Shown: in pieces, positions 14,524 to 35,900 of the stretch | Numbering within the stretch: the first letter of the stretch is position 1 | Layout of the letters: each line of letters starts with the position of its first letter | Source: Magnetococcales bacterium | GTDB lineage: Bacteria; Pseudomonadota; Magnetococcia; Magnetococcales; DC0425bin3 | DNA length: 46,766 nt | Assembly (NCBI GenBank): GCA_015228935.1 | Contig: JADGCO010000025.1 | Span: 1 to 46,766 of the forward strand | Direction: 5' to 3' | The notes under the pieces: generated by a model | What the model saw: the letters and a program-made list of their open reading frames with translations, nothing else | Databases searched by the model: none | Told to the model about the DNA's origin: nothing | Translations under genes and position numbers: made by a program

Positions 14524-16461
14524 ATGAATTTTTTCAACAGGCTGCTGATCTGGCAAAAATTTACTCTCGGATTTATCATCATCGGTTTCTTCTTTTCCGG
14601 TATCGTCATTGTTTACCATTTCAGCATGAAACAGGTGGAAGAGAGTTATGAACAATTGATTGATGTGGATTTTACCAGATTTACCCTGGGATACCAAATA
14701 TCCCATTCTCTCGCCCAGATGAGAGATGTGGAATACAATTTTCGGATCAACCCGAGCGATTCTCTTGCGGAAGATCATCAAAACTATTTCAAGGATTTTT
14801 TGGATAAACTCGCCAGACTGACCTCGCTGGAAGAGAAATCCGGCAATGAAGAGGACTTGAAAGCTCCCAAAGGCATTTTCAAGCAAATCAACGTTTATCG
14901 GGATGCTTTTACCGCCACGGTCAATGCCTGGAAGGTCAAGGGGTTCAACGATCACGCCGGGTTGCGTAAAAAAATACTGGATGATGCACAAAGGTTTGAG
15001 CAAATATTCAAGCAGGTTAATAATATTTGGGATGCTCTCTATCAGATTCGTCACTATGAGAATGCTTATCTGCGGACCAAAAATAAAGACTATGCCGAAC
15101 ATCTTCCCAGGCTGATTGACGAGATTCAGCAGAAGCTTGTCGCCAACGCGGTTTCCGACGACAAGGCAGCGGCTGACAGTCTCGCAACATACCAGAAGGA
15201 TTTCCTGGCCATGGTGGAACAGGACAGCCTGATCCAGGAACGCATCGAAACCATGGAGGAGGCCAACCAGGCGATTGAATTTTTGGTTGAGTATCATTTC
15301 GGGCGGGTCAAAGAGGATATGAAAAAGGCCTCTGGTGCCACGCAAAAGTTTGGCCGGGACCGGACCAGACTGGCCTTTATCATGGCTAGTGTATTAATAT
15401 TGTTGATGATTTTAATCGCGTTTCTTCTTGTCAACAGTCTGGTTCACCCGATTTCCAAGGTGACGAAAGCCATGCTCCATGTGGCCGGAGGCAACATGGA
15501 TTCCCAGGTTCCGGTGATGGGCAGCGACGAACTGGGACAAATGGCAACGATTTTCAATCAAATGGCCCGTCAATTGTCCGATGCTCACACCGGGTTGCAA
15601 AATGAACAGGAAAAATTGATGACCATCCTGCTCAGTGCCCGGGAGGGGATCATCGGCACCAATCGGGATGGCAAGGTGGTCCTGGTCAATCCGGCAGCCC
15701 TGCGACTGCTGGGAAAAACTGAAGAAAAAATCATCGAAGATGGATTTCTGCACATATTGGACGATCCGGATTATGTGCAGAAATTTTTGGAAAGATCCGG
15801 CTTCGACATGCCGGAAATCGTCGTCTACGGCGGAAAGGTTTTGCACTTTTTTGCGGCATCGATCAAGGACAAGACCGGGGAAATTGTGGGTTCCGCAGCC
15901 CTGATCCGGGATGTGACCGAAGAAAAAAAACTGGAACAAATGTTGCGGGATCTTTCCTACACCGATGGTTTGACGAAACTTCTCAATCGACGCCGCTTCG
16001 ACGAACTGCTGCTGGCAGAGTTTCAGCGGGCACGGCGGTATGGTCTGTCCGTGGGACTGTTGCTGTTCGATGTGGATCATTTCAAAAAGTTCAATGATAC
16101 CTATGGCCATGATCAGGGCGACCGGGTCTTGCAGGCAATTGCCGTGACCATGAAAAATTCATTTCGGGATGTCGATTTTTGTTGCCGGTATGGTGGCGAG
16201 GAATTTTGTATCATCACCCCCAACACTTCCATGCCCGGTCTTTTCATCGCCGCCGACCGTTTTCGGGAAAAGGTGGAGGCCCAGGTGATCGACGGTCTCA
16301 AGGTCACGATCAGCATCGGAGCCGTTGCCTACCCGTTGCATATTCCGGATATCCAGGGACCGGCGGAAATGTTGAAAGCTGCGGATGACGCCTTGTATGT
16401 TGCAAAAAAATCAGGGCGCAATCAGGTGTGTGTCGCCCAACAAAAAGAAAAAGAAGCGTAG
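14524..16461 (+). CDS. Membrane sensor diguanylate cyclase (4HB-like sensor, HAMP, PAS, GGDEF)
   Basis: 645 residues. Transmembrane helix 1 is at about 12-34. A mostly helical periplasmic region of about 245 residues follows, then transmembrane helix 2 at about 284-305. A HAMP domain follows (NSLVHPISKVTKAM...SDELGQMATIFNQMA), then a PAS domain (about 370-475, EGIIGTNRDGKVVLVN) and a GGDEF domain (about 480-640). The active site is RYGGEEF, and RDVD five residues before it is a canonical I-site, so a feedback-inhibited active cyclase is expected. The periplasmic part resembles the sensor of the chemotaxis protein at 22.4-24.8 kb in size and character. The gene sits 32 bases upstream of the monoheme cytochrome c and may share its transcript, which would place the conduit genes next to a c-di-GMP sensor. 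Confidence 0.94.
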   Translation: MNFFNRLLIWQKFTLGFIIIGFFFSGIVIVYHFSMKQVEESYEQLIDVDFTRFTLGYQISHSLAQMRDVEYNFRINPSDSLAEDHQNYFKDFLDKLARLTSLEEKSGNEEDLKAPKGIFKQINVYRDAFTATVNAWKVKGFNDHAGLRKKILDDAQRFEQIFKQVNNIWDALYQIRHYENAYLRTKNKDYAEHLPRLIDEIQQKLVANAVSDDKAAADSLATYQKDFLAMVEQDSLIQERIETMEEANQAIEFLVEYHFGRVKEDMKKASGATQKFGRDRTRLAFIMASVLILLMILIAFLLVNSLVHPISKVTKAMLHVAGGNMDSQVPVMGSDELGQMATIFNQMARQLSDAHTGLQNEQEKLMTILLSAREGIIGTNRDGKVVLVNPAALRLLGKTEEKIIEDGFLHILDDPDYVQKFLERSGFDMPEIVVYGGKVLHFFAASIKDKTGEIVGSAALIRDVTEEKKLEQMLRDLSYTDGLTKLLNRRRFDELLLAEFQRARRYGLSVGLLLFDVDHFKKFNDTYGHDQGDRVLQAIAVTMKNSFRDVDFCCRYGGEEFCIITPNTSMPGLFIAADRFREKVEAQVIDGLKVTISIGAVAYPLHIPDIQGPAEMLKAADDALYVAKKSGRNQVCVAQQKEKEA

Positions 16462-16493: not shown

Positions 16494-16871
16494 ATGAAAT
16501 TGCAAATCATTTCCAGATCAGGATCCTCTCGCCGTATCATGCCCATGCTGGTCGTGAGTATGGCTCTTGGCTTTGGCTGCGTGGCCGGAACGGCCCAGGC
16601 GGAAATGGACGCCGTCACGGCCCTTGAAGTATTGAAACGCAATGATTGTACAAAATGCCACTCCGTGCAAAAATCAAAAAACGGTCCTTCGTACACCAAG
16701 GTTGCCAAAAAATACAAAGGCGACGCCCAGGCTGAAGAAAAACTGTTTAAACATTTAACCAGCAATCCAAAAGTCAAACTTGAAGATGGCACTGAGGAAA
16801 ATCACAAAAAAACAGATTTTGACACTCCGGAACACCTCAGAGAATTCATTCGCTGGATTTTGTCGCTATAG
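16494..16871 (+). CDS. Periplasmic monoheme c-type cytochrome
   Basis: 125 residues. A signal peptide ends near AGTAQA|EMDA, with an n-region extended by about 15 residues (a second possible start is the ATG encoding MPMLVV). One heme-binding CTKCH lies in RNDCTKCHSVQKSKNGPSY, which is class I cytochrome c layout with a distal region ending HLREFIRWILSL. No clear methionine ligand in the usual GTKM form is seen near the C-terminus, so the sixth ligand is uncertain. Mature size is about 90 residues. It is the first of four electron-transfer genes on this strand and is a candidate soluble shuttle between the inner-membrane nine-heme/cytochrome b protein and the decaheme protein (inference). Confidence 0.9.
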   Translation: MKLQIISRSGSSRRIMPMLVVSMALGFGCVAGTAQAEMDAVTALEVLKRNDCTKCHSVQKSKNGPSYTKVAKKYKGDAQAEEKLFKHLTSNPKVKLEDGTEENHKKTDFDTPEHLREFIRWILSL

Positions 16872-17066
16872 CCAGGCAGATTTATGGTCCTGTCCTGATT
16901 GATTATCCGTGCCGGTCTGACGGGCCGAAATTTTTGAGTGTCCCGGGAGGACATGACAGGGAGAGTTGGTATGTTCAATCAGGTTGGTTCACTCAGATGG
17001 AACAAGTCAAAAATTCATGCCGATCTCATGAACCAGAATGGTGGGAGATGGGGAGGACATTGAGTG

Positions 17067-18101
17067 ATGTTACGCCATGCAGTGGGGGTTTGTTTGGGTA
17101 TCGGGTTGTTTCTGAGTGTTGCGACGGCTGTCGCTGGTGAAGATACCAGAGGCGACGACGGCAAGACTGGGAATGACAAGAAAGTACGACAGGATGCCGT
17201 GATGCGGGGAGATGCCGAATGCACTTTCTGTCACGATGAAGAGGATTCCACATCTTTATTGGCCATTGGCAAGACGAAGCACGGCACCCTGGCGGACAGC
17301 CGAACGCCGACCTGTACGAGTTGCCATGGTGCCAGTCGGGAACATTTAAAGAAGGAATCCGGGCAGGATAAGCGCCCCAAACCTGACATCACCTATGGGC
17401 GCCGCTCACCCAAAATTCGACCCGATGCCCGCATTGACGAAAATTTTGGCAATTTCAAGACCACCGATACCCCGGCGGCCACCATCAACAAGACCTGTAT
17501 GACCTGTCATCAGGGTGACAAGCTCCTGTTCTGGTCAAGCAGTGCCCATGTCAAGCAGGAAGTGGCCTGCACCAATTGCCATGATATTCACACCGATCAT
17601 GATCGGGTGTTGGACAAGCGCAGTCAGCCCAGCGTCTGTTTTGGTTGCCACAAGACCCAGCGGGCCATGTTCAACAGGCCTTCGCATCATCCTGTTCCGG
17701 AAGGAAAAATGTCCTGTTCCAACTGCCACAATCCCCATGGTTCGACAGGGCATAAATCCCTGCGCTGGGACAGCATCAATGAGACCTGCTACCAGTGTCA
17801 CATGGAAAAACGGGGTCCTTTCCTGCACATGCATCCACCCGTGGCGGAAAATTGCCTCATCTGCCACAACCCGCATGGCACCGTCGTGGCCGACCTGCTC
17901 AACTACCGTCCCCCGTATTTGTGCCAGAATTGTCACAGCAGCACCACCCATCGAGGTCAGGTTCCGGGTTTGCCGGGTGTCCGGACCACAAACATGTCAC
18001 AACTTGGGACGGTGGCACGGGGTTGTGTGAAATGCCATGTCAATATTCATGGCAGTAACAGCACCGAAAATGCAACAAGAACCGGACGTTTCCAACGCTG
18101 A
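17067..18101 (+). CDS. Periplasmic decaheme c-type cytochrome (DmsE/MtrA type)
   Basis: 344 residues with a signal peptide (LGIGLFLSVATAVAG). Ten CxxCH motifs can be counted: CTFCH, CTSCH, CMTCH, CTNCH, CFGCH, CSNCH, CYQCH, CLICH, CQNCH and CVKCH. The spacing and the repeated CxxCHNPHG sequences are typical of the DmsE/MtrA/PioA decaheme family. These proteins sit inside an outer-membrane barrel and carry electrons across the outer membrane. ATG 17067 follows GGGAGGA at 17051-17057; a GTG one codon earlier is also in frame. The barrel gene begins 26 bases after the stop. Whether electrons flow outward (reduction of iron or other acceptors) or inward (iron oxidation) cannot be told from sequence. 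Confidence 0.95.
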   Translation: MLRHAVGVCLGIGLFLSVATAVAGEDTRGDDGKTGNDKKVRQDAVMRGDAECTFCHDEEDSTSLLAIGKTKHGTLADSRTPTCTSCHGASREHLKKESGQDKRPKPDITYGRRSPKIRPDARIDENFGNFKTTDTPAATINKTCMTCHQGDKLLFWSSSAHVKQEVACTNCHDIHTDHDRVLDKRSQPSVCFGCHKTQRAMFNRPSHHPVPEGKMSCSNCHNPHGSTGHKSLRWDSINETCYQCHMEKRGPFLHMHPPVAENCLICHNPHGTVVADLLNYRPPYLCQNCHSSTTHRGQVPGLPGVRTTNMSQLGTVARGCVKCHVNIHGSNSTENATRTGRFQR

Positions 18102-18126
18102 TGAAACATCAGGGAGATTAAGTGTC

Positions 18127-20301
18127 ATGCGCATGAACGGAAATGCACGCTTCATTTGGACGACCGGGGTTGCTGTTTTGTTGCTGGGGTCTGGGACAGC
18201 CTGGTCCGGGGAGGAAAACAAGGCCGATCCGGGTGGCCCGTTCGGAATGTGTCCGACAGCGGTTCCCTATACGACCCCGGAAAGCTTCCTCACGCTTGGG
18301 GTCGGTTATCTGGATGGAAATCGCAGAAAATTCAGTACTTTCGATGGAAAAAGTTCGACCACGGGCATGTTTCTTCTGGACGCTGGATATCTCAGCCGGG
18401 ATGAAGCGACGGGCACCTGGAGTGTCATCGAAGGCCGTAATCTGGGCCTGACTGGCAATCGTGATGTCAAGCTTTCTTTTGAAAGACAGGGTATATGGGG
18501 AGTTCGGGTCGATTACATCGAAATCCCGCGTCTGGCACCTTACGATGTCAATTCCAAGACCGAGGGGTTGGGTACCTCCCAGCAAATCATTCCCAAGACC
18601 GCCACTTCAGATGATGGATCACCCCGGCAGATCAGGACGGATCGCGACCGTCTGGTCGTCAATACGTTTCGTACCTGGAACAAAAACATCAAGTTCAATC
18701 TCAATTTCAGAAACGAGACCAAGGAAGGTACCCGTCAGTGGGGGCGGGGTGGTTTCAACGAGTTTGCCCTGGAGCCGATTGATTGGACCATGCGCCAGTT
18801 GGAACCGACGGTGAGCTATACCGGCAAGCGTGGTCAATTGTTGGGAGGTTATAACGGGAGCTGGTTTACGAACGAAAACAATACCCTGGTGGATTTCATC
18901 CTCAAGGGGGACAACCCTGCCTTGTTGGCCAGCCACAGCTATATCACCCAGCCCATGGACAATGAAGCCCACCAGGTGTTTCTCAGTGGCGGGTATCATT
19001 TGCCGATGGATTCGCATGCCACCTTTAAAATCTCCCATGGTCGGGCAATGCAAAATGAACATTTGCCCACCAATGATATTGCCGGCCTCTCTCTTGCCTA
19101 TGCCCCTTCGAAGCTGCGAGGTCGGGTCGATACGACCATGATTCAATTGGGATTGACCACGCAACCCCTGGCCGATCTCAACATTGTGACCAAATTGCGC
19201 TATCATGATGACGATGACCAGACACCGGCATGGTTGGTGGTGAATACACCCACGACCCAGGTTCACGCCACACCCCTCTCGATCAGAACCACATCCGGCT
19301 TGTTGGAAGGAACCTATCGGTTGCCCTATCAGATCAGCCTGACCGGGGGCATTGAACTGAAGGATCAAAAACGGCAAATACCGTTTGGCAATGATGCGAA
19401 CAAAGATGGCCTGGATGATGAGCGGTTCATCCCCTGGCGTACAGATATTGATGAAACGACCTATCGTTTGCAGGTGCAAAGACACATGTCGGAAACCATC
19501 AACGGGGCGTTGGGGTATGAACATACGGACCGGAACGGGTCGCAATATTTGAATTCCACAAAAATCATGGGCAATGATTTTGGCAAGATCGCGCCTTCCT
19601 TCATTGCCGACCGGGAGCGGGACAAGGTGCGCCTGGCCCTGGATTGGCGGCCCGTTGAACGGCTCGGGTTCCAGTTGGTTGTGGAAGATATTGTCGATCA
19701 GTATGGACTGAATCAGATCCCTTACGGGCAGAAAAAGGCGCACAGCCAGCTTTATTCGGTTGACATGGATTATGCCCCCACAGATCGCTGGCTGTTGACC
19801 GGTTGGTACTCTTACGACACCAACAAGACCTGGCAGGATGCCGGTCGCTGGAGTTCCACGGGTGTCCATGAGGCAGACAGAAGTTCGATACTCAAGGACA
19901 TGGGCAGTTCCGTTGGCTTGGGCGTGCGCAATCAGTGGCATGATGGAGTCAAACTGGGTGCCGATTTTCAGTGGACCCGGGACAAATCCAAGTATGAAGA
20001 TACCATAACGGTGGATCCAAAAAGTGTCCTTCCGGCCTATCCGGCTGGCGTGACCCCTTTGCCAGATATCGTCACCCCGACAACACGCTTGAACACCTTC
20101 ATCGAATACAAGGGCATGGGTCCAGGTACGCTCCGTTTCGACTATCTCCATGAACGCTGGCATACCAATGACTGGACCTGGAAATTCAGCGACGGCTCTC
20201 CCTACGTTTATGGCACCACGACCGATGGAACGCTGATTTCCACCATGGATGGCCAGACATCCAACTTTTTTGGGCTTCGTTATACGACCCGTTTCAAGTG
20301 A
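18127..20301 (+). CDS. MtrB/PioB-family outer-membrane beta-barrel protein
   Basis: 724 residues. A signal peptide ends near GSGTAWSG|EENK, followed by a long series of alternating amphipathic strands and polar loops ending in aromatic FFGLRYTTRFK, with a terminal Phe-Lys rather than a bare Phe. The family assignment rests on features such as LTLGVGYLDGNRRKF, repeated strand pairs (VKLSFERQGIWGVRVDY) and the gene order directly after a decaheme cytochrome. MtrB/PioB barrels sheathe the decaheme wire. The N-terminal CxxC present in some Shewanella homologues is not seen; a single Cys is in GMCPTAV. The frame is open back to 18037 but overlaps the decaheme gene; ATG 18127 gives the signal peptide. 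The stop overlaps the next gene by four bases. Confidence 0.9.
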   Translation: MRMNGNARFIWTTGVAVLLLGSGTAWSGEENKADPGGPFGMCPTAVPYTTPESFLTLGVGYLDGNRRKFSTFDGKSSTTGMFLLDAGYLSRDEATGTWSVIEGRNLGLTGNRDVKLSFERQGIWGVRVDYIEIPRLAPYDVNSKTEGLGTSQQIIPKTATSDDGSPRQIRTDRDRLVVNTFRTWNKNIKFNLNFRNETKEGTRQWGRGGFNEFALEPIDWTMRQLEPTVSYTGKRGQLLGGYNGSWFTNENNTLVDFILKGDNPALLASHSYITQPMDNEAHQVFLSGGYHLPMDSHATFKISHGRAMQNEHLPTNDIAGLSLAYAPSKLRGRVDTTMIQLGLTTQPLADLNIVTKLRYHDDDDQTPAWLVVNTPTTQVHATPLSIRTTSGLLEGTYRLPYQISLTGGIELKDQKRQIPFGNDANKDGLDDERFIPWRTDIDETTYRLQVQRHMSETINGALGYEHTDRNGSQYLNSTKIMGNDFGKIAPSFIADRERDKVRLALDWRPVERLGFQLVVEDIVDQYGLNQIPYGQKKAHSQLYSVDMDYAPTDRWLLTGWYSYDTNKTWQDAGRWSSTGVHEADRSSILKDMGSSVGLGVRNQWHDGVKLGADFQWTRDKSKYEDTITVDPKSVLPAYPAGVTPLPDIVTPTTRLNTFIEYKGMGPGTLRFDYLHERWHTNDWTWKFSDGSPYVYGTTTDGTLISTMDGQTSNFFGLRYTTRFK

Positions 20302-22286
20302 TCGGCATGTTGGTATCGCTCATCCGAGGTGTCACCCTGTTTTGTTTGTTTGTGGGTGGCAGCATGTCACCAGTTTTGGCCGAGGGGGGAGCAGAAGATG
20401 CCTTGTGCAATACGGCGTGTCTAAAATGTCATGATGGGAGCAAAAAATATGAAATCCTGGATGCTTCACCCAATGCTGGCGAAACCGGCAAGCGTTTCCT
20501 GACGGCAATTACGCCGGAATTGTATGGGCGGGGGGTCCATGCGCGTCTGTTGTGCAAGGATTGTCACGATAAAATCCGCAATCTGAATCCTCCGCACCAG
20601 AGTGGTGCAGCGGAAAAGATCGACTGTGCGGCTTGTCATGTACGTTTGGCCAAGGCGATGCAGGAAGCCGAGACGGTGGTGGCATCTTCCCGCATGGAAA
20701 CGGTCATTCGTCATACCATCAACTACCGACGTTCGTTCCATGCCCGTCCCAATAAAGACAACCCGGATTTTCCCAATGCAGTTTGCCATGAATGTCATGA
20801 TACCCATTTTTTCAACGTGCCGGTCGAGAAGCATGGCCCGGACTATGACAAATGGCGGCTGACGATTCCAGAATTGTGCGGAAAGTGTCACGAAGAGGCT
20901 TTAGAGGATTACGCGGCTTCGTCTCATGGTGTTGGGATCCTGGAAAAATCAAATTCAAAGTCGGCCAACTGTTCTGATTGTCACACGACATATTCGACTA
21001 CCGGGGCACATTTGGCCGTTTTCAAGCTGATGAGTTCAGAGACGTGCGGCGCGTGTCATCCAAAAAGCCTGGATACGTATCGTCAATTTTATCATGGCCA
21101 GGTGACACGCCTGGGTTTTCATCATACGGCCAAGTGTTATGATTGCCACGAAAGCCATAAAGTATTGCCTGCCAAGGATCCCAAATCCACGGTTCATCCC
21201 GACAAGCGCCTGCGGACCTGCCAGAAATGTCATGATGGTCAACATCGTCCGCTGGCTACAGCCGGTTTTGCCTCGTTTTCGCCCCACGCCAACGAGAACG
21301 ATTATGATCACTATCCGCAGCTTTGGTACGTGTCCCGTTTCATGCGAGGGTTGATGTGGAGTGTTCTCTCCTTCTTCACGCTTCACTCTGTCCTTTGGTA
21401 TTACCGGGAATGGCGGGAGCGGCAACAGTCGCCTGTCGTTTTGCCTTTGAATGTTTCCCTTCCTGGTGTGGCAACCAATCCGCATGTGCAGCGCTTTTCG
21501 CTGTTCTGGCGTGTTCTGCACTTATTCTTTGTCTTGGCGGTGATGGTTTTGTTGTTGACCGGTACGACATTTTTGAACGCGCATCTGGCCTGGGCACCGC
21601 CACTGGCGCATCTGTTGGGTGGTGCGGAGCGTATGGGGTTGCTCCATCGGGCCGCAGCTCTTTGTCTGGTCGGTATTTTTCTCTTCCATCTTGTGTTTGT
21701 CCTGCAAAGTCTGTTGCGCAAGCGCAACTTTGCCTGGTTTGGCCCGGACTCGCTGCTGCCCAATAAAAAGGACTTTCTGGACTGCCGCGACATGTTCAAA
21801 TGGTTCTTTGGCCGGGGACCCAGGCCCGGATTTGATCGCTGGACCTATTTTGAAAAATTTGACTACTGGGCAGTTTTCTGGGGAATGACGATATTTGTCG
21901 GCAGTGGTCTGGTGTTGGCGTTTCCCCATGTGGCCGGACGGTATCTGGATGGCTGGGTATTCAATGTGGCCATTCTGGTTCATGGGCGAGAGGCGTTGCT
22001 GGCTACGGTATTTTTATTCACAATCCACTTTTTCAACAATCACTTCCGTCCTGCCAAATTTCCGCCACCGGATATTTCGATGTTTACCGGAAATCTCTCC
22101 CTGGCAGAGTTGCGGCGCGATCATCCGGCACAATTCGAGCGTTTGCAGAGTCGTGGTGAGTTACAGAGTCTACTGGTCCGTGGCCCGTCAAGGGGTATGC
22201 TCCTGGGGGCCAGGCTTCTGGGAGCATTGTTGCTGGTTGGCGGCCTGACGTTGCTGTTTTTGATGGGGAGCCGGTATTTTTGGTGA
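20298..22286 (+). CDS. Nine-heme cytochrome c fused to a cytochrome b-like membrane domain
   Basis: 662 residues. A signal or anchor segment (LIRGVTLFCLFVGGSMSPVLA) precedes a periplasmic part with nine CxxCH motifs: CLKCH, CKDCH, CAACH, CHECH, CGKCH, CSDCH, CGACH, CYDCH and CQKCH. From about residue 355 there are about five transmembrane helices with paired His residues (for example LHRAAALCLVGIFLFHLVF and VHGREALL...FTIHFFNNHF), as in di-heme cytochrome b of the b561/formate dehydrogenase gamma kind. This is the expected form of a quinol-linked inner-membrane entry or exit point for electrons. The start is GTG 20298, which overlaps the barrel gene stop (GTGA), implying translational coupling; ATG 20307 is an alternative. 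With the three upstream genes it completes an inner-to-outer membrane path. Confidence 0.9.
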   Translation: MIGMLVSLIRGVTLFCLFVGGSMSPVLAEGGAEDALCNTACLKCHDGSKKYEILDASPNAGETGKRFLTAITPELYGRGVHARLLCKDCHDKIRNLNPPHQSGAAEKIDCAACHVRLAKAMQEAETVVASSRMETVIRHTINYRRSFHARPNKDNPDFPNAVCHECHDTHFFNVPVEKHGPDYDKWRLTIPELCGKCHEEALEDYAASSHGVGILEKSNSKSANCSDCHTTYSTTGAHLAVFKLMSSETCGACHPKSLDTYRQFYHGQVTRLGFHHTAKCYDCHESHKVLPAKDPKSTVHPDKRLRTCQKCHDGQHRPLATAGFASFSPHANENDYDHYPQLWYVSRFMRGLMWSVLSFFTLHSVLWYYREWRERQQSPVVLPLNVSLPGVATNPHVQRFSLFWRVLHLFFVLAVMVLLLTGTTFLNAHLAWAPPLAHLLGGAERMGLLHRAAALCLVGIFLFHLVFVLQSLLRKRNFAWFGPDSLLPNKKDFLDCRDMFKWFFGRGPRPGFDRWTYFEKFDYWAVFWGMTIFVGSGLVLAFPHVAGRYLDGWVFNVAILVHGREALLATVFLFTIHFFNNHFRPAKFPPPDISMFTGNLSLAELRRDHPAQFERLQSRGELQSLLVRGPSRGMLLGARLLGALLLVGGLTLLFLMGSRYFW

Positions 22287-22387: not shown

Positions 22388-24787
22388 TCAGGTGATCTGA
22401 AGATAAACCTGGTCCAATGCCCCGAACAGGTCGGCCAGGGTGTTTTCCAGGGTTTTTATTTTGGATTTTGTTTCTTGGCGTATGTCGGCTGTGTCGCCTG
22501 TCGCGGAGACGATGAATTCCAGGCAAAGGGTGGCCTGTTCGTGAAAGGTCTGGTGAAGTCTGGACGCTTCCGGGTGATCGAGCAGAGGAGTACCAGCCAA
22601 TGGACAAGTGGTGGCAGTGGGCATGAATATGCCGGGACCTGATTTTTTCCCACGCAGGGAGCGGTGCAGCGTTTCCAGGATGCGCAGGTGACTGCTCTTG
22701 ATATCCTGAATATTCAAAAGCTTTTTCTCCATATGGACGGAGCGGCCAGCGGCATCCAAGGCATCGCCGGCCTGTTGGCCGTGGCGGGTGAGCAGATTGG
22801 AATATTCGATGGAGCCACGCAACAGGTTGGTCAGGCCCATGGACACCAGCATGTTTTTTTGCACGTGAATCGATGCGCTGTAGATGTCGCCGGCAAAGTT
22901 GCGCACCGAGTCGGCTTGACTGGAGGCAGCACGGCTGTTTTCGGCAACCAGGCTGACGGCAGAGGCGGCTTCCCGGGCGGCAACGGCAATGCTTTGCGTG
23001 GAGTTGGCCGCAATGGTGGCCGACTGGGCAACTTCGTGCGAGGCTTGCAGCAATTGCTCGGCATGGTGCTTCACGTCCACAGTGGCCACTTCGACATGGT
23101 TCATGTTTTGGACAATGTTTTCAATGGATCGGGACTGTTCGTCCATACTGGACTGAATGTCGTCATTGATGCGCGCAATTTTGCTGATCATGCCATTGAG
23201 ATTGTTGGTGGCTTCCGACACGCCCCGGACGTTGTCCCGGATTTTTTCGGCCAGGTTGGCAATGTTCAGGGTCACGTTGGCAGTCTGACGCGCCAACTCC
23301 TTGACTTCGTTGGCCACCACGGCAAATCCCTTGCCGGCCTCGCCGGCTCCGGCTGCTTCGATGGAGGCATTCAAGGCGAGCATTTTGGTCTGGTCGGCGA
23401 TATCGTTGATGTTTTCCACCATGTTGGCGATGGCGCTGGCTCCCTGAATCAGACTGGACATGACCTCGATGGTCTTTTTGGTCTGGTCACTGGCGGTGTT
23501 GGAACGGGCTGAAGCGTCCTGGCATAAATGGCGTACTCCCTGAATGGCTTTCGATACATGTTCGACATCGTCGCCGACACTTTGAACGGAACCCTCCACC
23601 AATTGCAGACTGTTATACACTGCGCCAATGTTGGAACTCATTTGATCCGCAGCAGTAGCCATGGTATTGACACTTTGGGATGCGGAATCAGCATTTTCCG
23701 CAATGGGCATGATGTTGTCGGAATGCAGGGATTGAATGGCCTGTGAGACCGACGTGATATTGTCACTGGCCTGATTGATGCTCACTTGGAGCTGTTGCAC
23801 CTGACCATCGAGCGTGTCGTTTTCTCGGACCACCTGCCGGGAAATTTGCAGGTTTTCCAGGGAATCCTTGTCCAAAGTCGCGTTCAGACGCACCTGTTCG
23901 CGAATGATGGCTCCCACATTGCCCGATTGCAGCATGGTGACAATGGCGTTGCGGGTCAGGTTGCTGACCATCTGGTTGAATATTTTTGCAATGTCACTCA
24001 ATTCATCACGGCCCATGACGGGAACCTGATGGCTCAGGTTCCCCTCGGCAACGGTGCGCATGGCATTGGCGATGGTGTGGGTGGGATGAACAAGGGAGCG
24101 GACCAGGAGTGAACCAACCAGGGTGGAAATCACCAGGGCCACCAGCATCACGACCAACAATCCCTGTTTCAGGTCGGACATGTTGACCACCAGGATATCC
24201 ATGGCCATTTGCACGGCATTCTCTTCCTGGGTCAACAGAGGCACCAGGTAAAATTCCAGGTACTCGGCGGCTTCGTCAAACTCACTCTTCAAGGAAAATC
24301 CCTCTTCCTGCTGTCCATTGACAAAAGCCTGGGCCATTTTTTTGCCGAGCTTATAGAAATTATCAAAATAAGAACGGATCTCGGCAACAGATTTGAGAAT
24401 TTTTTCGTTTTTCGACTGAGTGTAAAAATTCTTGTATTTATCCAGATCATCGATAAAATTTTTATAGTAATCCATGGAACCGCTGAAAATATCGGGATTG
24501 TTCCGGTCTGCCTTGTTGATGGATACTTCAGTAAGATAATACCGTGTCTGGAGCAGGTCTTTACTGAGATTCTGGGCCAGAATCACCATGCGCAATCGTT
24601 CCTGGCGTATATTTTTGACTTCACGGAATACAGCATCGCTGGCGACCCAACTCCAGATTCCAACGAAGATCAATAAGCATAATGGAATGACCACGCCTAT
24701 GGTCACACGCTGACCAATCCGAAAATTGTTCAGATTGATGAATTTCATCTCTGCGAGATGTTTAAGATGAAAATATTTCAGATTCAT
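22388..24787 (-). CDS. Methyl-accepting chemotaxis protein with a probable CZB-like zinc-binding tail
   Basis: 799 residues. Transmembrane helix 1 ([17 protein letters not shown]) is near residues 32-48, then a helical periplasmic sensor of about 165 residues, transmembrane helix 2 ([21 protein letters not shown]) near 210, and a HAMP domain ([14 protein letters not shown]...[14 protein letters not shown]). A long signalling coiled coil follows, whose hairpin tip reads [23 protein letters not shown] and [11 protein letters not shown]. This tip would contact CheA/CheW. After the coiled coil, about residues 690-799 have [43 protein letters not shown], resembling a chemoreceptor zinc-binding (CZB) domain with Cys and His ligands. 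ATG 24787 follows AGGATTTGTTTT. The receptor may serve redox- or metal-related taxis, a useful function for a magneto-aerotactic cell (inference). Confidence 0.93.
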
Positions 24788-27618: not shown

Positions 27619-28540
27619 ATGTCTGTTGTCGCACGGAGGAGTCCTTTTTGCTCGGCCAGATTGGAAACACGCGACTTGGATAAGAAGAACGCAAATATTT
27701 GTTGGCACTGTCTGGTCGCCGAAACACTCAAAACGCTGCTGGAACCCGTCGGCATCGAGGTGCGTTCGGAAGTCCAGGTCGTTTCTGCTCCACCCAAGGC
27801 GGACCTGATTTTGATTCAACGAAAAGAAGGTGGCCAAACGGCTGAACAACGCCTTCTCCTGGCGGACGGTCTGCGAGACCTGGACGCAGACCACATTCTG
27901 GCCGAATTGAAGATTACTGAAAGCCTGAACGAAGATACTCTGTCCCAGCTTGCTGTCTACGACTACCTGTATCTGGGCACGGCAAAATTGCAACGGCATC
28001 AACTACGCAGCGTCCTCATCAGTTCCATGACACCTCGGAAGGAATTTTTGCAAAAGTTCGCTTTTGAACCCGAAAAAAAAAGCCTTTGAAACAATCAAGC
28101 ACGCTGGATTGTTCAAGCTCTCCGTGGCATTTGGTCGGATCATCTTCGGTTTATGGAGATTGCAGATGAAAGATTCATTGATCAGCCCGGCAATGGAAAC
28201 AATCACGCCAGAGTACATCTCGCAACTCGGGCAGGAATGGTTCGATTTCATCTTGAACGCAACACCCGACGAGAAACTTTTTTCCTTGCCAATAATCGAG
28301 CATCGCCTGATGCAGGAACATCGAGCCGGGCTTCAAGCCGGACACCAGGATGGTGAGCGGGACGGTGAGGCTAAAGTACTGACTCGCCAGTTGCAGCGTC
28401 GCTTTGGCAATCTGCCTGCCTGGGTCCAGGAAAAAATCGCCGCAGCTGAACCGTCATCCCTGGAAAATTGGAGTCTTCGGTTTGTGGATGCCCAATCACT
28501 GGATGAGGTATTCTCAGAAAACAACAAGGATGTCATCTGA
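27619..28540 (+). pseudogene. PD-(D/E)XK (Rpn/YhgA-type) transposase-like protein with a C-terminal DUF4351-like region, frameshifted
   Basis: Two overlapping frames form one gene. The first (stop 28087-28089) has the nuclease core: PPKADLILIQRKEG, then HILAELKITESLNEDTLSQLAVYDYLY. The second (open from 28064) continues KKAFETIKHAG...MKDSLISPAMETITPEYISQLGQEWFDF, and ends with a DUF4351-like tail LTRQLQRRFGNLPAWVQEKI...SLDEVF. They are joined at a run of nine A (28073-28081); removing one A would restore a single frame reading FEPEKKAFETIKHAG. This is either a true inactivating insertion, a sequencing error in the homopolymer, or, less likely, frameshifting on the run. The start is uncertain: ATG 27619 or TTG 27598. 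Such genes spread as recombination-promoting elements. This one lies 225 bases before mamH, so it may mark an edge of the magnetosome region. Confidence 0.8.
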
Positions 28541-28765
28541 TGAATCGTGTGCCGATGTCATCCACCCGCAGGCCGGAAACCTGCAATACGTCCGACTCTT
28601 GGGATCTTTTTGCAAACTGCGCAAAAAAAAAAAAATCCTGGGAAAAGAGGGGCGTAAGAAAAAGCCCGTGGCATGGGGAAACGGAAAGAGTAAAATGGGT
28701 CGTGCAATAATCCAGGCATCTTTGCTGTTCGAGCAGGTTTCCGACGCGGGTAAGGGAGAAGGGGA

Positions 28766-30037
28766 TTGGTGACGGGTCGGCCCAAGGTTCATGAAGGACA
28801 TCACAACACACTGCTGCTCGTGGTGGCGCTGGTGATGATCCTCATGACCCTGATATTGGCGACACAGCCCTTGTTTCTGCGGCAAATTCTCTCTCTGGGA
28901 CGGGAAAATGCCGGTTTTGTCAATGCCAACATTCAAGTCGCCACGGAAGTGATCGAAATGGTCCTCGTGGGCTACCTGGGCTATCTGTCGGACCGGTTTG
29001 GCCGGGTTCCCATCCTGTTTTACGGCTTTTTGCTGTCCGGGGCCATGGCCCTGCTGATCCCGTTTTGCGGCAGTATCGCCCTGTTCCTGGGTGTGGAGGC
29101 CCTGGCCGTCTACTATCTGGCCCGGGTCCTGATGTCCCTGGGAACGACGGCCGTCTGGCCCCAGCTCGCCACCATGACGGGAGACTACAGCACACCCGAC
29201 AATCGGACCCGGGTGCTGACCAGGGCCGGCTTCATGACCGCCTTTGGCGCAACCCTGGTCTACGCCATTCTGATGCAACTGACCCAATATGTCGGCGTCC
29301 AGACCATCATGCTGTTTGCGGCCCTGGTGGCCCTGGCCGGGGCCTGGCTGGTCCACCATTTTCTCATCGAAACCGCACCCCGCCTCCAGGACCCCCGCTT
29401 TCCCTTTCAGCGCCTGTTGACATTACTCAAGCAAAGCAAAGAGCTGCGTCTCAGTTTCCTGGCCGCCTTCTCCTCCCGCAACGACATGGTGATCATCGGC
29501 CTGTTTCTCATGACGTGGTTCATCTATTTCAGTGACATGCTGCCGGATGTCAGCAGCAACCAGGCCGCCGGGCGGGCCGGATTCGTCATTGGCTTCATCG
29601 GTCTCGTGGTCCTGGTCTCCATCCCCGTCTGGGGTCACATTACCGAACGCTACGGCCCGATCCGCTCCGTCCTGATGGGACTGCTCCTGTCGGGAGTGGG
29701 CTTTTTGACCTTCGGCCTGATCATCAACCCCTTGAGCTGGTGGTCCCTGGTCCCGGCCCTGCTGGTCGGTCTGGGTCAGGCCGGCTGCATCCTGGCCCCA
29801 CAAATCCTGGTGATGGATCATGCCGAAGAAGAGATCAGCGGCTCGGTGATGGGGGCCTTCAATACCGCCGGCTGTATCGGCATCGTTTTTTTTCTGCAGG
29901 TCGGCGGCATTCTGTTCGACTGGGTCGGCCCTACCGCCCCCTTCCTGTTCACCGGATTGTCCAACCTGCTCATCACTTTATACGGAGCGGCAAATTTTTT
30001 GCATACCGGAATCGCCACCTCCGACCAACTGGAGTGA
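28766..30037 (+). CDS. mamH: MamH, magnetosome major-facilitator transporter
   Basis: 423 residues with about twelve transmembrane helices. The MFS motif A-like loop reads LGYLSDRFGRVP between helices 2 and 3. The placement directly before mamI and mamE is the conserved start of the mamAB operon. MamH is thought to help import iron or related ions into magnetosomes or the cell and affects crystal size and number; the exact substrate is not settled. The start is TTG 28766 or GTG 28769, both just after a purine-rich GGGAGAAGGGG. No strong promoter was identified in the 225 bases between the transposase-like gene and this start. Codon use is GC-richer than in the preceding unknown genes. The 5' end of the operon appears to be here. 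Confidence 0.93.
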   Translation: MVTGRPKVHEGHHNTLLLVVALVMILMTLILATQPLFLRQILSLGRENAGFVNANIQVATEVIEMVLVGYLGYLSDRFGRVPILFYGFLLSGAMALLIPFCGSIALFLGVEALAVYYLARVLMSLGTTAVWPQLATMTGDYSTPDNRTRVLTRAGFMTAFGATLVYAILMQLTQYVGVQTIMLFAALVALAGAWLVHHFLIETAPRLQDPRFPFQRLLTLLKQSKELRLSFLAAFSSRNDMVIIGLFLMTWFIYFSDMLPDVSSNQAAGRAGFVIGFIGLVVLVSIPVWGHITERYGPIRSVLMGLLLSGVGFLTFGLIINPLSWWSLVPALLVGLGQAGCILAPQILVMDHAEEEISGSVMGAFNTAGCIGIVFFLQVGGILFDWVGPTAPFLFTGLSNLLITLYGAANFLHTGIATSDQLE

Positions 30038-32928: not shown

Positions 32929-35900
32929 ATGTCGGAAAATGTCACCAGAATGGATAAAGAGCGCTCCCGTTCAGCCCGTTTGCGTGGCATCGCGGCCTTT
33001 CGTTCCGCAGCCAAGGAGTTGGCCGAGTTGACCCGTCAACGCCGGGAAGGAATGCAGAAAGCCACCGAGGTCGCGGTTGCAGCGGCCTTGCATGTTTCGC
33101 CTGTTCCGTCTATCGTCGCATCCGTTTCAACCCCCGAATTGGCCATGCCGGCGGTAACATCCTTTGCTGACCCAGGCCAGGTGCCACCCCCAACCAGGGA
33201 GCATGATGGCCGGCCAGCAGTCAAGGCAACTTCCATGGTACCTGCGGTCATGATGACATCCACAATACCGGAAGGAAGCACAGGAATGGCATCCGAGAGG
33301 CGGGACGCTCCTCAACCGGAACGAGGCTCAATTCCGGCGTCCGCCAGGCAAGAAACCTTCCAACCGGAAATAAGCCCAACCCCGATGTCTGCCAGGCAAG
33401 AGACCCCCCAACCGGAACAAGGCTCGGTCCCGACGTCCGCCAGACAAGAGACACCCCAACCGGAAATAAGCCCAACCCCGACGTCCGCCAGACAAGAGGC
33501 CCCACAACCGGAAATAAGCCCAGCCCCGACGTCCGCCAGACAAGAGGCCCCACAACCGGAAATAAGCCCAGCCCCGACGTCCGCCAGACAAGAGGCCCCA
33601 CAACCGGAAATAAGCCCAACCCCGACGTCCGCCAGACAAGAGGCCCCACAACCGGAAATAAGCCCAGCCCCGACGTCCGCCAGACAAGAGGCCCCACAAC
33701 CGGAAATAAGCCCAGCCCCGACGTCCGCCAGACAAGAGACACCCCAACCGGAGCAAGGCTCAACCCCGGTGTTCACCAGGCAAGAAATTCCTCAACCGGA
33801 AAAAAGCCCGGGAGCGGTGTCTGCAAGGCAAGGTACTTCTCAGAAGGTGGCGGAAATTGATCTGCCCCTTGCGGCCGGTCCTGTTTCCCTGGGAGAGGTG
33901 GCCGATATTGTTCTGCCATTGCCCGGGGAAAGGGTTTCTGCACCTTCCCAACCCGACTTGAAACAACCCGTCAAGACATTGACCGAAAAACCGCCCCGCA
34001 AGCCAACAGCGGACCCCTCCATCATCGAAGAGGCAACGCACCCTGTCCTGTTGGCCCTGATGGGAAAAAAAACCGGGCGCAACCGGGCAGGCAAGACTTC
34101 GACCCCGGTCACCCCCCCCCCGGTCACAGCTCCGAACGACACGGTCGCGACGACCCCTGCCACACTGGCTGAACAGGCCCATCAGGTCGCCAAAAGGGCA
34201 GGCGCGGACAAGGAACGCAACCTGCCCGATCCAGCCCGACTGCGACACCAGGCGGAAACCTGGACGACGCACCCCGAAACGGCTGGCTCTTCATGGGCAA
34301 AACCGGAGTCGGTCGCCGTCCCCGTCCGGAAAGGGCGCCGTGCCTCCCCTCCTGCCCAAACAGTACCCTGGTCTTCCTCGACATCAGGCATTGTGCTGCT
34401 GAGTGAATCGCAGCCACCTGCGTCCAGTGACCGGGGCAAAGAGGCATCGGCAGCAACGCCGCACCCCTCGGACACGACCGATCTCATTTCGAGACGCTCC
34501 ACCCGGCAAATGATCGGCCTGGATGTCTGGAAAGGCAGCGCCTCGGGCGTGGCCGTCCTCTCCATGCCGGACTCGGCTCTCGCACCAGCCAACACCCAGG
34601 CAGCAAAAAACGGTTCCACCCCCTGGGTGGCAGCGGTCGGCGCTGCGGATGCCCAGGTTGGCAAAACCGGCCTGGCTTCCCGGTCGGCGTCAGCCGACAC
34701 GACGCCTGCCCAGGTTGACAAACCGGGTCCGATCCCCTGGTCGGCAACGCCCTGCCCAATGCCTGCCCAGGTTGACAGGCCAGGCCCGGCTCCCCGGCCA
34801 GCGATGGATGCCGGGATTGACAAACCGGGTCCGGCATCCAGGAAAGCGACAGCGGCCAGGATTGACAAACCGGATCCGGCATCCAGGCCAGCAACGGAGG
34901 CCAGGATTGACAAACCGGGTCCGACTCCCTGGACAGCAGCAGGTGCCGAAGTGGACAAGCCAGGTCCGGTTCTCTGGTCGGCGACAGCCAGCATGACCGA
35001 TATCCAGGCTGAAAATCCCGGTTTGGCTCCCTGGTTGGTGTATGCCGGACAGGTGCATGCCGCCCGCCGCAAAAGACGTGTGCCGGCCAGCACGATCGCG
35101 GCCATGGTCGGCAGCCGGATTCCCGCCCCGGCAGATGCCAAGCCGCCTCTGGATAAGACCCAGGTTGGGGTGAACGGTGCCATGCCACCGGAAAAGACCC
35201 AGGTTCGGGAAACCGGTGCCATGCCCGCCACACTACGGGCGACAACACCCTGGTCAGTCATCGCCGCCTCTCCGACAGGGAGTACATCCCCTGCGACAGC
35301 CGGTGTCCCGCAACCTGCACCTGCAAACGATCTTGCGCTCCCGCGCCAGCAAAAAAAAGGGCTGCCAGCCGCTCTCGCCCGGACAACCCCGGAACAGGCA
35401 CCTGTGACGCCGGTATCCGTGACGTCGGCACCCGAGTTGAACGCCGTGCGCACTGCGTCGGGACCCTGGTGGCCCGGCAAACCGGGACAGAGTGCCGCTC
35501 CTTCTTCCGACCAGCAGGTCCCGTTTCAGGCTGCTGCACAAGCAGAACCTGAAGAACAGAACAAGGAGACGGAACCAGCCGTTGAGACAATGACCCTCAA
35601 CAAGGCAATACCCGTCACCGGCAAAGGCAGGCCTGACTTTGTCGATCTGGTCAATCATCTGCAATGGCACGTTCCCCAACTCTCCCCCGTCGCGGCAGAC
35701 CCTGTGCCCCCCCCATCCGCCGAGGCGGATGCAGGGTTGTCGGCCTGGGGTGCGCTCGTGGCCCAGTTCGGAACCCGACGTGGTGAAGTCAAGTACGGCT
35801 TCTGCCCCCTGCCGGTCGTTGCGGTCGGCGGCGCTTCGGACCCGCTCCCGGAAGCGACAGCCCAGGAAGAGGAACCGGTGCCCCCTGCGGGCATTCCCTG

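Follow-up and report, generated by a model that had tools for sequence, protein, structure and literature searches.

Gene Content and Order of the Locus

The window, by which we mean the whole of the 46,766-nucleotide stretch at positions 1–46,766 of contig JADGCO010000025.1 in the Magnetococcales bacterium assembly GCA_015228935.1 (4.7 Mb in 197 contigs), carries at 16494–22286 four genes, all on the forward strand, that are probably best read as an mtoD-A-B-C operon encoding a metal-oxidation (Mto) porin–cytochrome conduit. The set proposed in a first-pass annotation, consisting of a monoheme cytochrome c, a decaheme cytochrome, a barrel, and a nine-CxxCH/cytochrome b fusion, is borne out by the open reading frames (ORFs), by their CxxCH motifs (one, ten, none, and nine, in gene order), and by Pfam and NCBIfam matches. 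The operon is compact, and the GTG start of the fourth gene overlaps the stop codon of the third. The conduit and its surroundings comprise the following features.

14524–16461, forward: HAMP-PAS-GGDEF diguanylate cyclase whose sensor is helical, separated by 32 bp from mtoD downstream; Pfam GGDEF (3e-42), HAMP, PAS
16494–16871, forward: mtoD-like periplasmic monoheme cytochrome c, predicted bis-His ligation by H56 and H104; PDB 4xxl_A (3.4e-24)
17064–18101, forward: mtoA-like decaheme cytochrome of the MtrA/DmsE family; TIGR03508, 6r2q_A, tree
18127–20301, forward: mtoB-like outer-membrane barrel (MtrB/PioB), in an ORF that opens at 18037; PF11854, TIGR03509, 6r2q_B
20298–22286, forward: mtoC-like inner-membrane quinone module, a nonaheme c domain fused to an FdnI-type cytochrome b
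22388–24787, reverse: methyl-accepting chemotaxis protein (MCP) with a four-helix-bundle (4HB) sensor, HAMP, MCP signaling domain, and degenerate CZB-like C terminus; convergent with the operon
28766–30037, forward: mamH (MFS), first gene of the magnetosome cluster; PF07690 (1e-48); not counted in the conduit system

A surface cytochrome of the OmcA/MtrC type had been reported missing, and this holds: the model TIGR03507 scores above its cut-off in none of 48 Magnetococcales genomes, and no ORF of this kind occurs in the window, where the only further multiheme ORF is a two-motif magnetochrome protein within the magnetosome cluster. A HiPIP resembling PioC was not found beside the decaheme and barrel genes; the small carrier there is a monoheme cytochrome c, and the flanks are held by the GGDEF protein and the MCP. 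The complete path from the quinone pool to the surface that had been suggested for this layout, without a surface cytochrome, is supported as the layout of an Mto system. Because the four-gene set recurs in 12 of the 48 Magnetococcales genomes, its assembly at this locus is not a matter of chance. The family of the conduit, the order of its parts, and its evolutionary placement are read from sequence.

Relationships of the Decaheme and Barrel Proteins

The decaheme cytochrome scores 259 bits against TIGR03508, the DmsE-family decaheme model (cut-off 192), and matches chain A of 6r2q at 1.4e-56. Entry 6r2q is the MtrAB structure from Shewanella baltica. The barrel is recognized by MtrB_PioB (PF11854, 8e-110) and by TIGR03509 (274, cut-off 240), and matches 6r2q_B at 1e-15; its start is most likely at 18127 rather than 18037, since a signal peptide follows the former position. 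The best named matches of the decaheme are Magnetococcales metagenome-assembled genomes (MAGs). Outside the order, the closest relatives among the 80 named loci retained from 279 confirmed are beta- and gammaproteobacterial, at 50–53% identity. Removal of loci L072–L081 and L147, which duplicate genomes already in the set, leaves 69 named loci. In 17 of them the decaheme gene has a nonaheme/b gene no more than 5.5 kb away; in the remainder a tetraheme or MtrC-like gene takes its place or, in some, nothing is recognized. Neighbor labels follow this 5.5-kb rule, so that L103 and L128, where the nonaheme gene falls outside that distance, are scored solely as MtrC.

In a decaheme tree of 106 rows, for which no root was inferred and in which rows are labeled by gene context rather than by assay, the 12 Magnetococcales rows form one clade (support 100/100) within a clade of 27 rows (100/98). 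The neighbors recorded in this larger clade are nonaheme-b561 genes in 17 rows and a tetraheme gene in one, with none recognized in nine; neither MtrC nor DmsA occurs among them. Rows L197–L200, which belong to other families of this phylum, lie far from the window decaheme. A check tree left out 11 of the 106 rows (six long branches, one partial sequence, and four distant ones). Approximately unbiased (AU) tests reject a joint clade with the DmsA-linked rows (p = 1.1e-6) and one with the Shewanella-like MtrA rows (p = 5.2e-6), the latter being loci with two OmcA/MtrC-type neighbors that were so labeled by interpretation. By sequence, the decaheme thus groups with beta- and gammaproteobacterial Mto-like loci and not with the Dms or Shewanella-type Mtr systems.

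It is scarcely credible that the conduit is a DmsEF-type partner of an extracellular molybdoenzyme, such as a dimethyl sulfoxide or iodate reductase. The two systems belong to the same decaheme/barrel superfamily, and NCBIfam does label the decaheme "DmsE family", though the model also catches both MtrC-linked and DmsA-linked decahemes and hence covers relatives of MtrA and MtoA. DmsA-linked decahemes are separated from the window type by a starred branch of the tree, and no molybdopterin enzyme occurs among the Pfam-scanned genes of the window. Since a clade with DmsE is rejected, the conduit is not DmsEF; the phylogeny that the first-pass annotation had put forward as a check therefore goes against clustering with that pair. 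The identification as MtrCAB is rejected as well: the window encodes relatives of Shewanella MtrA and MtrB, but MtrC was not detected and the place in the tree is distinct.

Distribution in Magnetococcales

A clear decaheme of this family is present in 14 of the 48 genomes; at E 0.001, 18 genomes have a match, which in four of them is weak. Twelve of the 14 conduit genomes have the mtoDABC type seen in the window, usually in the order monoheme, decaheme, barrel, nonaheme. The monoheme gene is placed after the nonaheme gene in G040 and G042, and the set is split across contigs in G018, G033, and G035. The other two genomes, G024 and G025, have a more distant mtoD-A-B set together with a NapC/NirT tetraheme cytochrome, as in the layout of Sideroxydans. 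This second conduit (L047:7108–11723 and L048/L049) differs from the window type and was probably acquired separately. No report of Mto-type conduits in Magnetococcales was found in the literature searched. The presence of the conduit in 14 of 48 genomes of magnetotactic cocci, which are hard to grow, offers a testable energy metabolism for these cells at the oxic–anoxic interface.

The Periplasmic and Inner-Membrane Components

The window monoheme cytochrome is recognized by Pfam Cytochrom_C (4e-6), and its nearest solved structure is 4XXL. That structure is MtoD of Sideroxydans, which is unusual in having two His ligands to its heme, His47 and His95 (PMC4412085). H56 and H104 of the window protein align with His47 and with the distal ligand His95, respectively, and H104 is conserved in 74 of 76 aligned monohemes. 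Its sequence fits the MtoD class, that is, a class I monoheme cytochrome c with predicted bis-His ligation.

In the fourth gene product the nine heme motifs precede the membrane part, and Pfam recognizes Cytochrome_C7 and Ni_hydr_CYTB (b561; 2e-7). An AlphaFold2 model built from 41 sequences has a mean predicted local distance difference test (pLDDT) score of 86. It superimposes on FdnI of formate dehydrogenase N (1kqf_C) over 202 residues, nearly the whole FdnI length, with Z 14.8 and root-mean-square deviation 2.8, and Foldseek matches it to FdnI with E 4.6e-4. In FdnI four His residues bind two b hemes, and the menaquinone site lies near the cytoplasmic side. The modeled membrane part has the fold of the FdnI/hydrogenase cytochromes b, with four helices and a predicted pair of hemes. 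Every one of the 41 sequences has His363, 408, 450, 464, 562, and 577, all located in the membrane part or beside it. The protein encoded at 20298–22286 thus has two more invariant His residues than a pair of b hemes would require, and a third b heme is possible. Structural matches of the nonaheme domain, to HAO and hydrazine dehydrogenase, are middling (Z 5–6).

A tree of nonaheme proteins places the Magnetococcales operon copies in one clade (100/100), sister to the Mto-linked copies of beta- and gammaproteobacteria and apart from octaheme-linked paralogues. Because the decaheme and nonaheme trees agree, the operon probably moved as a module. A plasmid search returned one distant Photobacterium match for the decaheme and none for the nonaheme protein.

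The paralogues form a second nonaheme/b group, about 37–46% identical, that is common in Magnetococcales (G037 included) and mostly adjoins HAO-like octaheme proteins. Such pairs are found at L051:7330–10870 and at most of 20 other loci (L033, L050–L069). It is possible that nonaheme/b and octaheme proteins together constitute a quinol-driven octaheme reductase.

Comparison with Known Conduits

Mto-type conduits have been discussed mainly for iron-oxidizing Betaproteobacteria. The kind of conduit, mtoDABC, is already known; against the literature searched, its occurrence in the Magnetococcales lineage is new, and the linked sensors set it apart as a variant. The nearest described layout is mtoABCD of Gallionella capsiferriformans ES-2 and Dechloromonas aromatica RCB, which as described likewise combines a monoheme MtoD, a decaheme MtoA, a barrel MtoB, and a nonaheme inner-membrane component, MtoC; the account speaks of "tetraheme CymA in ES-1 and nonaheme MtoC in ES-2" and places mtoABCD in D. 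aromatica (He et al. 2017, PMC5566968). A separate description of ES-2 gives it no CymA homologue and puts the extra multiheme gene upstream (PMC3770913). The window differs from both strains in lineage, in its flanking sensors, and in gene order. ES-2 MtoC is equated here with the c/b fusion of the window on the basis of heme count and of a homologue in a Gallionellaceae MAG (L103), rather than of the ES-2 sequence.

The cluster of Sideroxydans lithotrophicus ES-1, MtoD-MtoA-MtoB-ImoA-PmcA, has its first three genes in the same order as the window and, as described, also lacks a surface cytochrome; unlike the window, with its nonaheme–FdnI fusion, it contains the tetraheme ImoA/CymA and a second monoheme cytochrome, PmcA (PMC13390432). 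Within Magnetococcales it is G024 and G025 that resemble the ES-1 set. CbcL of Geobacter, whose partner conduits differ from that of the window, likewise joins a multiheme c domain to a membrane-bound cytochrome b in contact with quinone.

Proposed Mechanism and Direction of Electron Flow

By analogy with homologous proteins, electrons would cross the outer membrane by way of MtoA threaded through MtoB, with no surface cytochrome involved; the periplasm would be bridged by MtoD together with the nine-heme head of MtoC, and the FdnI-type diheme b part of MtoC would exchange electrons with the quinone pool. Should MtoC operate in the manner of FdnI and meet quinone near the cytoplasmic face, energy would be conserved when electrons move inward, and moving them outward would consume proton-motive force; conduits that use a tetraheme ImoA/CymA differ in this respect. 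The Sideroxydans MtoD has a potential of +155 mV; in vitro it showed no interaction with either ImoA or MtoA, and an oxidase may be its electron acceptor (PMC13390432). By analogy, electrons in the Magnetococcales system may split between an oxidase and MtoC.

An inward flow, with Fe(II) or reduced solid minerals as electron donors at the oxic–anoxic interface, seems somewhat likelier than an outward one; the conduit may also be reversible. MtoAB is the conduit reported to be expressed on solid magnetite in Sideroxydans (PMC12016527). It is possible, though less likely, that the same conduit runs outward and serves, below the oxycline, as an outlet for respiration: MtoC would oxidize quinol, and the electrons would end up on electrodes, humics, or Fe(III) minerals. 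The high potential of the MtoD homologue (PMC13390432) fits a path bound for an oxidase instead, the nearest decaheme clade has no MtrC neighbors, and MtrC was not detected in the 48 genomes.

Several observations weigh against the proposal of an Mto conduit used for uptake, and some of them favor outward flow. The iron reducer Magnetospirillum magneticum AMB-1 has mtrAB without mtrC, and magnetotactic Bdellovibrionota with MtrAB and no MtrC have been interpreted as iron reducers (PMC13200544, as described there). The partners of the MtoC paralogues are HAO-like octaheme proteins, and this context suggests that quinol is oxidized. Published MtoA/MtrA trees separate oxidizers from reducers poorly (PMC10734462; PMC8805035), so tree position does not prove direction; the Mto and Mtr systems are reported to be reversible (PMC10734462). 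Our own trees were built without named ES-2, D. aromatica, PioA, or ES-1 MtoA sequences. The chain from MtoA through MtoD to MtoC is not assured, because the Sideroxydans MtoD did not interact with ImoA or MtoA. Finally, RuBisCO was found in none of the 48 genomes, which argues against lithoautotrophy through the Calvin cycle; since other pathways of carbon fixation were not searched, this absence neither proves nor excludes uptake.

Sensory Proteins Flanking the Operon

The two signaling proteins encoded beside the operon carry sensor domains of classes that, at high similarity, are restricted to genomes with mtoDABC. The sensor domain of the window MCP finds 11 strong places in the 48 genomes (44–100% identity, E up to 7e-57), which fall in nine genomes, all of them with mtoDABC (9 of 12, against 0 of the 36 others); the next best match has 30% identity and E 3e-26. 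Ten of the 11 places are no more than 4 kb from the operon; the eleventh belongs to G006, where it occupies a different contig. The sensor of the window cyclase finds seven strong places (E up to 1.5e-48) in 7 of the 12 mtoDABC genomes and 0 of the 36 others, all within 6 kb of the operon, with nothing stronger than 7e-24 elsewhere. One or both classes are present in 12 of 12 mtoDABC genomes and in 0 of the 36 others, which include incomplete genomes, so that some absences may be missing data. For both classes the E-value cut was chosen after the gap was seen, and shared descent inflates any p value for the co-occurrence.

Full-length homologues of the MCP, 55–58% identical, occur near the operon in G026, G032, G033, G040, and G042, in addition to a 55% match at G018 and a 35% match with a hemerythrin domain at G006. 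The MCP-type sensor also sits on a GGDEF protein in G042 and G010, and G042 has both outputs. Foldseek relates the 4HB sensor to generic chemoreceptor ligand-binding domains for several ligands (best E 0.04). A CZB domain is not called by Pfam in the window MCP even at E 10; because among its homologues only that of G006 has one, the zinc-type residues of the window protein rest on its alignment with the G006 homologue. The operon-linked chemoreceptor of G006 (L041:6091–8868) ends in CZB and hemerythrin domains, and an oxygen or redox input is possible for it.

This co-occurrence suggests a conduit with dedicated taxis and cyclic di-GMP (c-di-GMP) sensing. Judged from linkage and co-occurrence, the chemoreceptor and the diguanylate cyclase probably inform the flagellar and c-di-GMP systems about the state of the pathway or about its substrate. 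We tentatively propose that in magnetotactic cocci a dedicated sensory unit belongs to the Mto conduit. A chemoreceptor and diguanylate cyclases, which can have a sensor domain in common, would read the redox state of the conduit or its substrate and direct how cells swim and attach. If so, the point of contact between magnetotaxis and extracellular electron exchange would be the taxis network rather than biomineralization. With a chemoreceptor and a c-di-GMP enzyme accompanying the conduit, the long-standing question of how cells locate solid electron donors or acceptors and commit to them would become testable.

It is less probable, though by no means negligible, that the sensory genes are ordinary neighbors whose co-occurrence only mirrors one inherited block. 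Magnetococcales are rich in chemoreceptors and GGDEF proteins, MCP-domain matches being numerous across these genomes, and co-inheritance makes a Fisher test over-significant. Against this, an MCP lies within 4 kb in 8 of the 12 operon genomes and in only 1 of 21 octaheme-linked loci and 2 of 69 outside loci; at the tetraheme-type loci L047 and L048 neither an MCP nor a GGDEF protein was found within that distance. Both sensor classes end sharply at the operon genomes (7e-57 against 3e-26, and 1.5e-48 against 7e-24) despite varying gene order and orientation, and in G042 the MCP and the cyclase have one sensor type in common.

Precedents in Geobacter and Shewanella make a sensory partner of the conduit plausible by analogy. 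In the Geobacter Esn network, EsnA, an MCP, and EsnD, a diguanylate cyclase, are needed for growth on electrodes (PMC5585712), and an MCP and the conduit are both needed for Shewanella congregation, in which cells gather at minerals (PMC5789149). As described, these sensors carry domains (GAF; Cache and PAS) other than those of the window proteins; EsnA lacks a periplasmic domain, whereas the window MCP has one of the 4HB type. The window sensors are encoded beside the conduit, unlike those of the Esn network and of Shewanella congregation.

Relation to the Magnetosome Cluster

The distance of about 6 kb between the conduit and mamH given in the first-pass annotation, measured here as 6480 bp from mtoC, had raised the idea that external iron redox and biomineralization are linked. 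It is very improbable that the conduit serves magnetosome formation by supplying or balancing iron redox for magnetite. Iron redox is common to both systems, and they are close together in this one genome. Across the order, however, mamK is present in 46 of 48 genomes, with or without the conduit, which occurs in 14. Twelve of the 13 other conduit genomes have mamK, in all 12 on a different contig; in G023 mamK was not detected. No mam genes were found in the fetched flanks of the other conduit loci.

Two sister species do without the conduit: their MamK is 95–98% identical, but the decaheme, barrel, and monoheme were not found. Their contigs begin close to mamH, near the point where the window has a DUF4351 repeat; for this reason an empty conduit site cannot be read in them. 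The DUF4351 ORF lies within this repeat, between the conduit and mamH (27660–28560), and many copies, 70–82% identical, are spread over the genome (C39, C2, C48, C78, and others). The co-occurrence survey, the lack of conserved linkage, and the sister species thus leave the proposed link unsupported, and the nearness of conduit and mamH is best taken as accidental, which corrects the tempting inference that closeness to mam genes implies a role in magnetite formation. Within the magnetosome cluster itself, a 1709-aa ORF that has no Pfam match lies between mamE and mamK, at 32929–38058.

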